The notes under the pieces were generated by a model. The model was not told where the DNA came from, searched no databases, and worked only from the letters and a program-made list of their open reading frames with translations. Shown one piece after another: positions 12,143 through 19,342 of a stretch of DNA of 64,000 nt. A program made the translations under genes and the position numbers. Position 1 is the first letter of the stretch. Each line of letters starts with the position of its first letter. The DNA is from Chloroflexota bacterium (GTDB lineage: Bacteria; Chloroflexota; Limnocylindria; Limnocylindrales; CSP1-4), in the NCBI GenBank assembly GCA_003141455.1, contig PLMA01000067.1, positions 163,568 to 227,567 of the forward strand, read 5' to 3'.

Positions 12143-14734
12143 CTACTCGGCGTCCCCTCGCGCCAGATGCCGCTGCATGGCGGCCTTGCGCGAGAGGTTG
12201 ACCCGCCCCTGGCGGTCGATCTCCATGACGACGACCATGACCTCGTCACCAACCGAAACCACGTCTTCCACTGTGGGCACGTGGTAGTCGGCGAGCTCGC
12301 CGATCCGGACCAGGCCTTCCTTGCCGGGCAGGATTTCGACGAAGCAGCCGAAGCCCATGATCCGGGTCACTTTGCCCAGATACAGGCCCCCGACCTCGAC
12401 CTCGCGAGTCAGCGACTCGATCCACTGAACCGCCTTGCGCGAGCTGTCGCCCGACACCGCGGCGATCTGGACCGTGCCGTCGTCTTCGACGTTGATCTCG
12501 GTCCCGGTCTCCTCCTGGATCTTGCGGATCACGGAGCCGCCCTTGCCGATGATGTCGCGGATCTTCTCGGGGTTGATCTTGATGGTGATGATGCGCGGCG
12601 CGAAGCTGCTCATCTCGGACCGGCTGGTTGAGATCACGGCGTCCATCTTGTCCAGGATCGCCAGCCGGGCCTCGTGGGCCTTCTGCAAACCCTGGCGAAT
12701 GATCGCCTCATTGATGCCCTTGACCTTGATGTCCATCTGCAGGGCGGTAACGCCCTCGCGGGTACCGGTGACCTTGAAGTCCATGTCGCCGAAGGCATCC
12801 TCCTTGCCGAGGATGTCGGTCAGAACCACGAATCGGCCGTCGGACTCGCTGATGAGACCCATGGCAGCACCACCGACGGCCGCCTTGATCGGCACGCCGG
12901 CGTCCATCAGGGCCAGGCTCGAACCGCACGTCGAGGCCATCGAGGTGGAGCCGTTTGACGTCACGCACTCGCTGACCAGCCGGATGACGTAGGGGAACTC
13001 CTCTTCGGAGGGCAGGACGGGCAGAAGGGCCCGCTCGGCCAGGTGGCCGTGGCCGATCTCACGCCGGCCGGGGCCGCGCATCGGCTTGTTCTCGCCGGTG
13101 CTGTAGGGCGGCATGTTGTAGTGGTGGAGATACCGCTTCTCGGTCTCCGGGCTGATCGTGTCGATCCGCTGGACGTCGGAAGAGGGACCGAGAGTGGCCA
13201 CGGTGAGGGCCTGCGTCTGGCCTCGAGTGAAGAGTCCGGAGCCGTGGGCGCGCGGCAGAACGCCGACCTCCACGGAGATGGGCCGGATCTCGTCTACGCC
13301 GCGGCCGTCCATGCGGATCCCCTCGTCGAGGACCGTCTTGCGGACCGTCTTCTTCTGGACGAGCTGAAACAGACCCTTGCTGACGCGGACCTGGCGGCGA
13401 GCCGCTTCGAGCAGGCCGGCCGGATCCTCGCCTTCCTTGCGGTTGGCGCGGATCGAAATGGCGATCCCGTCCATCAGGTTCTGGATGCGGTTCGGGAGGT
13501 CCTCCGCGAACTTGGCCAGGATGGCGGCGGTCGTCTCGGCGTCGGCCAGGCCGCGGTGAGCGGTCTCGACGGCGATGCCGAAGAACTTGGCGATATCGCC
13601 CAGTTTGTAGGACTCGAGGTCCGGGTAGCCCTCGCGGGCGATCACTAGCGTATCGAAGTAGCCGCCCTCGATGAACTTGCCAGTCTCGCCCAGTGCCATG
13701 TCCAGGAAGCCGATGTCGAAGCCCACGCTGTGGCCAACGACCGGGGCGCCGGCGACGAAAGCGAGCAGCTTCTCGGCCGCTTCCTTTGCAACCGGGGCGT
13801 CTGCGACGTCCGCGTCCGTGATGCCGTGCATCTGGGCGCCGAAGATCGTTCGGCCCGGGCTGACGAAAGTCGAGAAACGATCCACGACCTTGCCGTCGCG
13901 GACGCGAACTGCGCCGATCTCGATCAAGTCCGCGACCTTGGGATCGCGGCCGGTCGTCTCGGTGTCGATGACGACGAACTCGGAGCCGCGTTCGCTGACC
14001 TTCTTGACGAACTCCAGGACGGAGCCGGTGCCGGGCTCGAGGTAACCCGCGACCTTGGGCTTGCCGACGGCAGCCAGCATCTCTTCCTGGATGTCGATGA
14101 GCGGCTGAAGGGCGCGGTGGCCGAAGAGGATGGCATCGGCCATGACGTCTTCGGGCACGATCGAGGCGCCGGCCTCGACCATCATGATGGCGTCGCGAGT
14201 TCCGGAAACGATGAGGTCGATGTCGGAACGCTCGAGATCGCTGATCGTAGGATTGACCACGAGCTCGCCGTCGATGCGACCGATGCGCACGGCGCCAATT
14301 GGCCCAAGGAACGGGATCGCACTGATCGTCAGAGCGCACGAGGCGGCAAACGTGCCGAGGACGTCAGTCTGGTTCTCCTGGTCCGTCGATAGGACCGTGA
14401 TCACGATCTGGATGTCGTCCTTGTAGCCCTCGGGGAAGAGCGGCCGAATCGGTCGGTCCGTCAGCCGGCATGCCAGGATGGCCTGCTCGGACGGGCGCGA
14501 CTCGCGCTTGATGAAGCCGCCCGGGATCTTTCCGGCGGCGTACATGCGCTCTTCGAACTCGACGGTGAGCGGGAAGAAGTCCAGGCCCGGTCGCGGGTCG
14601 GACCGGTTGGCGGTCCCCAGGACCATGGTGTCGCCGAAGCGGACGGTTACCGCTCCACCGGCCAGTAAGGCCATCTTGCCGGTTTCTACGGTCAGGGTGC
14701 GGCCGGCGAATTGCGTCTCGAATGTCTGAGACAC
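12143..14734 (-). CDS. pnp: Polynucleotide phosphorylase with an inserted DEDDh exonuclease domain
   Basis: An 863-residue chain; normal PNPases have about 700. Domain order is RNase PH1 (1-225), a DnaQ/RNase T-type exonuclease (about 252-412), the remainder of the helical linker (413-465), catalytic RNase PH2 (465-690), KH (about 715-780, loop GKGG 730-733) and S1 (about 783-852). PH2 keeps Asp646, Asp652 and Lys654 in the [10 protein letters not shown] context, matching the phosphorolytic site. The insert has all DEDDh residues: Asp257 and Glu259 in DTETTG, Asp340 in GHSVGFD, and His393 and Asp398 in HRGLADAE. It sits in one uninterrupted frame, replacing part of the all-alpha linker. Start is GTG 14734, ten bases after AGGAGG. 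It follows rpsO, the classical rpsO-pnp order. Confidence 0.96.
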
Positions 14735-17449: not shown

Positions 17450-19342
17450 TCACCCTGGGCTGGCCTCCGCGGCTGTCCCGATCAATACGACTCGGACATC
17501 GCCGGTCTTCAGGTCGTCGCCGGTGAATTCCAGCTCGACCTTCCCATTTGCCACGGCGGCGATGGCACGGACCGACGCCGGCTCCGACCGGCGCCCGAGC
17601 TTCCACGCGGGGCCCACGATGGCCGCGTAGCGGCCCGGGGGCGGCAGCGAAACCGGCAGCTCGAACTCGATATCCACGGCCGAGTCCTTCGGCTCGCCGG
17701 TCAACCGGCCCGTGACCCCGACCGAGCGGCCAAGCAGGCTGCGCGCTCCCGCCAGGTCGCCGACCGAGATGCGGCGCCTGATCTCTGAGCTGCGGACCTG
17801 CTCGCCGTCGGAGAGGAAAGACGACACTACGGTCACCGCGAAGCCCGTCTTCTCGCCCAACGCCGTGAGCGTCGAAGGAGTGCCGCCGCGCTCGAAGCCA
17901 AAGGCTGCATCGGGGGTCATGACGAAGCCGGCGAGGTCCACCCGCTCCCGGATGGTGGCCACGAAGGCGTCGTATGGGGTGGTGCGAAGGGCATGGTCGA
18001 AGTGCTGGACGACGGTGACTTCGACGCCGGCAGCCTCGAGGCGCACGAGGCGCTCGTCCGGGTCGCACAGGAGCGGCGGCGCCATGCCCTCGATCAACTC
18101 CTCGGGATGGGCGTCGAAGGTGATCACCGCCGGGCGCGCCTCCGCGCGTTGAGCGGCGCGTCGAAGCTCGCGCAGCAGGTACTGGTGACCGCGGTGAAGG
18201 CCGTCGAAGACGCCCACCGCAAGATAGAGGCGGCCAAGCTCGGGTCCGAGGGCGTCTATGCCGGGCATAACCAGCATCCGATTGCGTCGGTCCACCACGC
18301 GCAGCCGCGGCTCCGTAGCATGAATGGCGCCGGACGGTGCTCCGCGAGCCGCCCCTTCCGCGCCGTCGGATCCGCCCTCGGTTCCACGCGGACCGGCTGT
18401 GGCGCCGGCAGGCGGCGGAGCGGCCACGAAGATCTTGTCCGGCACGAGCCTGCCGCTCTTCCACGAGCCTACGCCAATCAAGGCTCGATCCTCGGCCAGC
18501 AGCCGGACGCGAGCTCCGTCCTCGAGGCTTATCCGATGGGCCGGCTTCACTTGCTGACCGCGTGAGGCGGCAGCCACTTCGGCGTCGGTCAGCACGGCCT
18601 CCGCGATCCCCTCCAGCCCGGCGTCGATGGGAAGTGCAAGCGCGGCCAGCGCCGCGGGCCCTTCGGCGGCCGCCCCGCGGATCTCGTCGAGGGAGTACGC
18701 GGCCGCCAGGCGGAACGGCCCACTGGCCGTCCGCGTCAACGCTCCGAGGTAGGCACCGCACCCCAGCCGCTCCCCGAGGTCCCGGGCGAGCGACCGGATG
18801 TAGGTCCCGGCGCCGCACTCGACTTCCAGAACGGCCATCGGGCGGTCGGGATCGGAGGCGTCCCACTCCTCCAACTCCAGCCGGTGGATCGTCACCGCTC
18901 GCGGCGGGAGCTCCAGAGGCTTCCCCTGCCTGGCGAGTCGATAGGCTCGTCTGCCGCCGACCTTGAGGGCGCTGTACGTCGGCGGTCGCTGCTGGATGGG
19001 TCCGCGGAACTCGGCCAGCGCCGACTCGACGGCCTCGCGCGTGGGGGCGGCCCCCGAGCCGGGCACGAGCTCACCGTCGCGATCGTCTGTATCAGAGCTG
19101 GACCCGAAGCAGACCGTGGCCCGGTAGGCCTTCGTGTCGCCCATGTGGTACTCGACCAGCCGCGTCGCCAGACCCAGGAAGACCGGCAGGACGCCCGAGG
19201 CGAAGGGGTCGAGAGTCCCGCCGTGGCCCACCCGGCGCGTCCCCGTCAGGCGACGAACCAGGGCAACGACGTCGTGCGAAGTGAAACCCGGATCCTTCGC
19301 GACGACCAGGATCCCGTCCATGCCGCGCGGGCGATCCGACAC
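17450..19342 (-). CDS. truB: TruB-RibF fusion: tRNA pseudouridine-55 synthase joined to FAD synthetase
   Basis: A single 630-residue frame. Residues 8-308 are TruB, which makes pseudouridine 55 in tRNA: catalytic Asp45 in GHGGTLDPFASG, then RPPTYSALKVGG and a PUA-like end. A low-complexity linker (309-355) joins it to a RibF N-terminal domain (373-539), the FMN adenylyltransferase, with GVFDGLHRGH (377-386), ITFDAHPEE and RSSEIRRRI. The last 90 residues sit where riboflavin kinase should be but lack its GFPTAN-type motif and look degenerate. So the second half may only make FAD from FMN. It starts three bases after nrnA stops, in the usual nusA-infB-rbfA-nrnA-truB-ribF order. An internal ATG near 18277 has no good ribosome site, so I read this as a true fusion. 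Confidence 0.92.
   Translation of the reverse strand: MSDRPRGMDGILVVAKDPGFTSHDVVALVRRLTGTRRVGHGGTLDPFASGVLPVFLGLATRLVEYHMGDTKAYRATVCFGSSSDTDDRDGELVPGSGAAPTREAVESALAEFRGPIQQRPPTYSALKVGGRRAYRLARQGKPLELPPRAVTIHRLELEEWDASDPDRPMAVLEVECGAGTYIRSLARDLGERLGCGAYLGALTRTASGPFRLAAAYSLDEIRGAAAEGPAALAALALPIDAGLEGIAEAVLTDAEVAAASRGQQVKPAHRISLEDGARVRLLAEDRALIGVGSWKSGRLVPDKIFVAAPPPAGATAGPRGTEGGSDGAEGAARGAPSGAIHATEPRLRVVDRRNRMLVMPGIDALGPELGRLYLAVGVFDGLHRGHQYLLRELRRAAQRAEARPAVITFDAHPEELIEGMAPPLLCDPDERLVRLEAAGVEVTVVQHFDHALRTTPYDAFVATIRERVDLAGFVMTPDAAFGFERGGTPSTLTALGEKTGFAVTVVSSFLSDGEQVRSSEIRRRISVGDLAGARSLLGRSVGVTGRLTGEPKDSAVDIEFELPVSLPPPGRYAAIVGPAWKLGRRSEPASVRAIAAVANGKVELEFTGDDLKTGDVRVVLIGTAAEASPG

Follow-up and report, generated by a model that had tools for sequence, protein, structure and literature searches.

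A TruB-fused RibF with a degenerate riboflavin kinase module in Limnocylindrales, and a candidate FGGY-family replacement kinase in sister lineages

FMN and FAD are universal cofactors. How, then, does a cell obtain FMN when the riboflavin kinase (RFK) half of its RibF protein appears to be degenerate? This question is raised by a 64,000-nucleotide stretch of a Chloroflexota genome of the order Limnocylindrales (assembly GCA_003141455.1, contig PLMA01000067.1, positions 163,568 to 227,567; hereafter the window), in which one open reading frame on the minus strand encodes a fusion of TruB and RibF. Its features are as follows, with residues numbered in the fusion protein.

17450..19342, minus strand: TruB-RibF fusion open reading frame, 630 residues, GTG start
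18437..19321, minus strand: TruB (tRNA pseudouridine-55 synthase) half, residues 8-302 (TIGR00431, PF01509)
17702..18232, minus strand: FMN adenylyltransferase (FAD synthetase) module, residues 371-547 (PF06574, NCBIfam RibF models, alignment)
17474..17722, minus strand: remnant riboflavin kinase barrel, residues 541-623, six predicted strands (model, fold match to 2x0k, motif counts, hhalign)
17627..17647, minus strand: LPPPGRY, the retained GxY strand of the RFK module (pattern in 47 of 49 RFK-less tails)

Both halves upstream of the tail are well supported by family models. The TruB half scores 225.5 bits against TIGR00431 (cut-off 151.45) and matches PF01509 with an E-value of 4.1e-49, and its C-terminal TruB domains in Pfam reach residue 302. 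In the RibF half, the FAD_syn domain PF06574 covers residues 371-519 (E 4.7e-32, 111.4 bits, cut-off 27), the motifs FDGLHRGH and RSSEIR are intact in an alignment with RFK-bearing relatives, and the NCBIfam RibF models end at residue 546-548. The best named relatives of the protein come from Chloroflexi metagenome-assembled genomes, at 54-58% identity over the best segment; Candidatus Limnocylindrus shows 38% identity, and on this similarity the genome is placed in Limnocylindria. Of 61 genomes, 56 have an adenylyltransferase match above cut-off. We rejected the idea that this half changed along with RFK loss, as an altered loop (T/S-P-D/E-x-A-F-G) is common to the RFK-bearing rows of the window's own family (f1) and to G057 of family f4.

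truB and ribF share one frame (17450-19342, minus strand), joined by a linker that is low in complexity and spans about 55 residues. Scored as a stop-free frame upstream of ribF rather than as TruB presence genome by genome, the fusion extends across the genus: the frame is open for at least 223 residues in 20 of 21 genomes, and in the 21st it ends at the contig end. In three genomes of other genera (G024, G032, G034) the ribF frame begins just before the domain, so ribF is a separate gene there. Elsewhere in the window, positions 12143-14734 (minus strand) encode a polynucleotide phosphorylase of 863 residues that carries a DnaQ/RNase_T-type 3'-5' exonuclease domain (residues 254-406, Pfam) between its RNase PH repeats; by eye, a relative at locus L208 has the same insert.

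The final 91 residues of the fusion protein (540-630; 17450-17725, minus strand) are where the RFK module would be expected. An earlier note, drawn from the sequence of the window, had held that the last ~90 residues lack the RFK motifs, and this is borne out: PTxN, LExHL, RxExRF, GxRPTF and DLYG are all missing from the tail, and no Pfam family matches it at E ≤ 10 when it is scanned alone. The bifunctional NCBIfam models all score below cut-off and end at the adenylyltransferase half. We then surveyed RibF tails drawn from 52 of the 56 over-cut-off genomes (leaving aside G046, G051, G052 and G053) and from 12 further genomes of the order, giving 49 tails without RFK, among them that of the window protein, and 15 with it. 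PTxN and LExHL each occur in 0 of 49 versus 15 of 15 tails, and RxExRF in 0 of 49 versus 14 of 15; because the RFK-less tails were picked by the absence of Pfam RFK, part of this contrast is built in. Looser patterns for GxRPTF and DLYG match all 15 RFK-bearing tails and one RFK-less tail each (G034 and G006, respectively), which we read as chance matches. The GxY strand, on the other hand, is retained in 47 of the 49. Counted from the LLGR motif, the window tail spans 95 residues, against 123-177 in the 15 RFK-bearing relatives; the RFK-less tails span 73-110, save for two that extend past the usual end (G087, 337 residues; G002, 137 residues) and for G036, a near-complete deletion that leaves only 25 residues beyond the FAD_syn match.

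Loss of PTxN is seen beyond this survey as well. Two other Chloroflexota RibF proteins (L110, 3132-4004; L148, 4001-4876) are near full length and lack it, and altogether it is missing in 6 of 79 readable loci, with PTMN (L104) and PTCN (L128) counted by eye as carrying the motif; the other four are Limnocylindria by similarity. A second, partial degenerate RibF tail lies beside apparent rpsO and pnp genes at L216 (G087, contig C25, 8671-8856), perhaps on a contig of another strain.

The same earlier note had described the RFK half as a shrunken remnant, and profile comparison and structure prediction both support that description. Aligned by hhalign with intact RFK domains, 30 tails of family f1 give a probability of 97.7 and an E-value of 1.6e-12, and 50 column-shuffled controls score at most 17.2 versus 73.1 for the real tails in a rerun without G059; the f1 tail therefore derives from RFK. 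Tails of f2, the family of the same order with genomes of about 1 Mb, give a weaker probability of 84.7, with 3 of 12 tails over-trimmed; in that first comparison the intact row G059 was also trimmed too short. The AlphaFold model of the RibF half (mean pLDDT 88.8, pTM 0.87) places six strands (183-265 of the half) at the site of the RFK barrel, with pLDDT below 50 in the loop at 226-230, and this predicted model superposes on the Corynebacterium FAD synthetase 2x0k with a Z-score of 27.1 and an rmsd of 2.5 over 267 residues (Foldseek E 4.3e-23). Specifically, an RFK barrel is modelled, but it has neither the PTAN segment nor the C-terminal helices that follow the strands. Within the genus, median dN/dS is 0.47 for the tail and 0.12 for the adenylyltransferase half, about 4-fold apart (207 of 210 pairs usable); by this measure the RFK-like tail is under constraint, that is, purifying selection. 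The RibF remnant is old and maintained, and we read the tail as a module retained for folding, not catalysis.

Taken together, these findings make it highly probable, as judged from sequence and model, that the window protein is an FMN adenylyltransferase fused to TruB in which a dead RFK barrel is kept for structural reasons, so that it would convert FMN to FAD and make no FMN. It is very unlikely that the shrunken module has rebuilt its active site and still works as a riboflavin kinase. The confidently modelled barrel, the retained GxY strand, the purifying selection on the tail and the presence of lumazine synthase in seven RFK-less genomes, where some kinase should exist, would all suit such an enzyme; yet PTxN, LExHL and RxExRF are gone from all 49 tails, G036 lives without the module, and plant RibF1 and RibF2, which show the same pattern, are reported in the accessible part of PMC2972280 to have no RFK activity.

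In that part of PMC2972280, FADS-type II denotes RibF proteins with a shortened C-terminal module that has lost PTAN. Most are additional copies in genomes that also encode a bifunctional enzyme, and in 3 of 1194 genomes they are the sole type; the lack of detectable RFK activity in plant RibF1/RibF2 is given there with a citation of Sandoval et al. The window protein has the HxGH and SSxxxR adenylyltransferase motifs of this type (as FDGLHRGH and RSSEIR) and a shortened module without PTAN, and it resembles the chloroplast RibF1/RibF2 described in the same source in having a C-terminal module 40-60 residues shorter, with PTAN lost and prolines beside the kept GxY. Its predicted model shares the two-module fold of the bifunctional FADS-type I of Corynebacterium ammoniagenes (2x0k), but the tail lacks G-F/Y-P-T-x-N, GxxPT, LExH and RxExKF. 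By its sequence features, the window RibF is thus a new case of a known type, FADS-type II. It departs from the described cases in the TruB fusion of its genus, in a setting where no RFK is found in 110 of 126 genomes of the order, and in that seven RFK-less genomes carry lumazine synthase; plants, by contrast, have a separate FHy/RFK, and no RFK-fold kinase was found here. What is new relative to FADS-type II, as far as genome sequences tell, is that it is the sole form across most of an order, genomes with riboflavin synthesis included, and that sister lineages offer an FGGY-family candidate.

To our knowledge, two unrelated families of riboflavin kinase are known, one bacterial and eukaryotic and one archaeal, represented here by PF01687 and PF01982. 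The window's genome (G000) yields no PF01687 match at E ≤ 10, no PF01982 match and no match to a lineage profile built from intact RFK domains, which answers the earlier note's call for a genome-wide search for a second kinase. More broadly, PF01687 is found in 0 of 21 members of the genus, in 9 of 61 relatives and, across the order, in 16 of 126 genomes (genera g6, g7, g10, g16, g32 and g33). The archaeal, CTP-dependent family PF01982 is over its curated cut-off in 0 of 61 genomes, with sub-threshold matches in G004 (E 0.23) and G007 (E 0.51). Among 14 control genomes the PF01687 search was positive in ten and the PF01982 search in four. We also considered and rejected an RFK hidden from Pfam: the 16-domain intact-RFK profile, run at E ≤ 10 on 15 genomes, matches strongly only in three RFK-bearing ones (≤ 2.2e-64), the other matches being 0.06 (G087, its own RibF tail), 0.08 and 0.34 (G074) and 0.20 (G002, its own RibF tail). 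That RFK is missing merely through incomplete draft assemblies is scarcely credible. G000 is indeed 92% complete in 68 contigs, but RFK is missing from the whole genus, the degenerate half sits inside otherwise intact ribF genes, and only 4 of the 37 order genomes with at least 90% completeness and at most 5% contamination have RFK.

Some RFK-less relatives appear able to make riboflavin. Lumazine synthase (ribH) occurs in 9 of the 126 order genomes, seven of which are RFK-less (G030, G064, G074, G087, G101, G102 and G123). All seven have a degenerate RibF tail and yield no RFK to the intact-RFK profile, which suggests that a kinase is escaping notice. By eye, the operon order in the nine genomes is ribD, ribE, ribBA, ribH, with RibD, RibE and RibBA domains confirmed in G030. 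A replacement kinase encoded in this operon was sought and rejected, as none is present in any of the nine (open reading frames by eye, domains checked in G030). A radical-SAM/CofH-type gene resembling FO synthase follows the operon in seven of the nine (the exceptions are G064 and G074), as at L058 (4139-10510; domains scanned) and, by eye, at L193, L194, L196, L197, L198 and L199, in RFK-bearing and RFK-less genomes alike, hinting that flavin and F420 precursors are under joint control. Riboflavin uptake is also well represented: the binding protein of the RibXY importer gives a high score in 70 of the 126 genomes, ten of them RFK-bearing, and the accessible part of PMC4418817 supports riboflavin uptake by a relative in Chloroflexus. 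At L060 (6969-8912) and L285 (8441-10413), an FMN riboswitch precedes a binding protein of the SBP_bac_5 family, a system that is possibly a new flavin importer.

The surroundings of the RibXY genes point to a candidate. In 27 genomes, a gene for an FGGY-family kinase adjoins the importer at 12 of 22 RFK-less RibY loci (16 from f1 and six from f2) versus 0 of 5 RFK-bearing ones, and a thirteenth such gene was found later in G092. The genes run FGGY, ATPase, RibX, RibY on the same strand; in G021, ABC, permease and NMT1/THI5 domains were confirmed beside the kinase. When a profile of 11 of these kinases was scored against the 12 best candidates in each of the 126 genomes, 48 genomes reached at least 410 bits and all other matches listed were at or below 340 bits; G022 was added for a contig-cut piece beside ATPase-RibX-RibY, not by profile score. 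Outside the window's genus (g1), 49 of 70 RFK-less f1 genomes have a member of this strong group, with RFK-less taken as no Pfam RFK in the draft assembly and the ribF tail read in 16, versus 0 of 16 RFK-bearing f1 genomes. Among f1 genomes with RibXY it is found in 39 of 44 RFK-less versus 0 of 10 RFK-bearing, and RFK and the FGGY clade were never found together in one genome. Additionally, the clade is present in six of the seven RFK-less genomes with ribH, and one FGGY match is found in 18 of 19 f2 genomes, of which six proteins join the strong-group clade with support of 100/100 versus nine paralogues. G036, on its own branch and without an RFK module, carries an FGGY kinase too.

These counts have to be read against kinship. 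Fisher values for the co-occurrence of about 1e-7 ignore it; in the adenylyltransferase tree the RFK-less and RFK-bearing f1 rows form separate clades, so the counts reflect few evolutionary events. The RFK-less rows fall in three places in that tree, namely an f1 clade (98/100), f2, and a long branch occupied by G036 alone, which does not support a single origin of RFK loss. Nor does the clade cover every RFK-less lineage. It is found in 0 of 4 members of genus g24, the ribH-bearing G074 included, and was not found in eight of the 15 g13 genomes either; none of these genomes has a Pfam RFK. Five RFK-less genomes with RibXY (G027, G028, G063, G090 and G129) are also without it; G027 and G028 are counted as RFK-less while having no ribF over cut-off.

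In sequence, the clade stands apart from named FGGY enzymes. Four scanned strong-group proteins have FGGY_N and FGGY_C domains, and an Asp that is invariant across an 11-row FGGY alignment aligns with the Asp of xylulose kinase 2itm, as in FGGY carbohydrate kinases such as xylulokinase. Their best NCBIfam score is for xylulokinase (XylB), at 200-247 bits with a cut-off of 380, and of three f2 proteins one reaches 151 bits against the xylulokinase model and the other two match no NCBIfam model at E 1e-30; every clade protein scanned is thus under all NCBIfam equivalog cut-offs. The clade further differs from xylulokinase-like FGGY proteins in the motif G[HQ]GP[TS], present in 21 of 23 members, whereas among the nine paralogues five have GQMH[GS] and four neither motif.

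Regulatory features of the FGGY loci suggest a link with flavins. Among the 19 strong-group loci read, an FMN riboswitch occurs in eight, and in another eight a regulator gene of a single kind adjoins the kinase; the two were never found together. Neither was seen at G087 or G088, and G022 is cut. At four regulator loci, a relaxed Rfam scan finds no riboswitch at E ≤ 0.1. The one regulator scanned, from G078, combines HTH and Pfam Sugar-bind (PF04198) domains, and we take it to be of the SorC type. Regulators of this type often sense phosphorylated ligands, which would fit FMN as the ligand. In all eight riboswitch loci the kinase gene lies upstream of the riboswitch and so is not under its control. 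In G034 and G109 the kinase is just upstream of the riboswitch and an SBP_bac_5 protein comes next (domain scanned in G034), and in G078 an SBP_bac_5 relative (46%) follows the kinase beside the regulator. The kinase thus accompanies flavin-linked uptake with either RibXY or SBP_bac_5, and with either riboswitch or regulator. At G087 it lies away from RibXY and adjoins a Peripla_BP_4 protein, and G088 is similar. A BioY gene is near the kinase in five of six f2 loci (domain confirmed in G048), directly adjoining it at L268 (5033-7256), L267, L269, L270 and L272 and on the same strand in L268, L269 and L270, the loci with genes listed; BioY also lies within about 4 kb of the kinase in G024, G030, G034, G080, G088 and G109. 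The substrate of the f2 BioY neighbour may not be biotin.

The window's own genus is a different matter. Its 21 genomes have no lumazine synthase, and riboflavin is therefore probably not made by the window's cell. None of them has a RibXY binding protein at E ≤ 1e-20 or, among the 12 best candidates scored per genome, a strong match to the FGGY clade; the genus FGGY proteins that were scanned (G019 and G002) are xylulokinases at 455 and 462 bits, with a cut-off of 380. No FMN riboswitch was detected in the genus either, with at most 43 candidates per genome scored under strict filters, so that this absence is not firm. The chance that the genus manages without any riboflavin kinase, by importing FMN, FAD or a different precursor of FMN, is in our view just short of even. 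In its favour, none of the 21 members has RFK, archaeal RFK over cut-off, lumazine synthase, the RibXY binding protein or the FGGY clade, and an FMN-using enzyme is retained in the genus; an unrecognised kinase would fit these absences equally well, however, and relatives retain RibXY, for whose Chloroflexus relative the accessible part of PMC4418817 supports uptake of riboflavin.

For the sister lineages, the chief alternative is that the FGGY kinase acts on a sugar or polyol and is tied to RFK loss by accident of shared ancestry, a reading that we consider plausible while leaning somewhat against it. A regulator of the same kind adjoins the kinase in 8 of 19 loci and the scanned one has a sugar-binding domain, the best NCBIfam score is for xylulokinase, the separate clustering of the two sets of f1 rows makes the counts non-independent, and neither the G087 and G088 loci nor the f2 BioY neighbour has a flavin link. 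Against this, the four scanned proteins fall below the XylB cut-off, the gene adjoins FMN-riboswitch importers of two unrelated kinds, and the riboswitch and the regulator, at eight loci each, were never found together, as if interchangeable. Moreover, 18 of 19 genomes of about 1 Mb retain one FGGY gene, and G036, which has wholly lost the RFK module, has an FGGY kinase too. We put the chance that the FGGY-family kinase of the sister lineages is a replacement riboflavin kinase, its substrate suggested by sequence and gene context, at about one in two. Such a replacement could explain only part of the pattern, because the clade was not found in the window's genus, in g24 or in eight of the 15 g13 genomes.

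In the accessible part of PMC4418817, Clostridium ljungdahlii has a 'carbohydrate kinase' with an FMN riboswitch. A literature search on riboflavin kinase and Limnocylindria found nothing, the accessible part of PMC6169038, from the literature on Limnocylindr and riboflavin, holds nothing on RFK, and none of the titles listed by a wider search concerns an FGGY riboflavin kinase.

Returning to a replacement by an FGGY kinase, we propose the following model. In the sister lineages, riboflavin would come from uptake or from synthesis, its ribityl 5'-OH would be phosphorylated by the FGGY enzyme to give FMN, and RibF would adenylate FMN to FAD. The window protein, whose C-terminal module would be a catalytically dead RFK barrel serving as a structural part of the fold, would carry out only this last step, from FMN to FAD; the loss of RFK activity is deduced from sequence and model. 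The window's cell would take up flavin and obtain FMN by a route other than a known riboflavin kinase. In evolutionary terms, the odds seem evenly balanced that within Limnocylindrales an unrelated FGGY kinase took over from the RFK domain and that the RFK half of RibF then degenerated into an empty barrel, with the window's genus depending on a further kinase or on imported FMN or FAD.

An order in which most surveyed genomes show no bacterial-type kinase, some of them with riboflavin synthesis genes, is a clean case of a missing enzyme, and purifying a single protein would be enough to test the FGGY candidate. The presence of ribF is also an unsafe sign of FMN synthesis, since in the window protein the match to the bifunctional family models is confined to the adenylyltransferase half. 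If the proposal is true, the FGGY enzyme would add to the two known families of riboflavin kinase a third that is not homologous to them.
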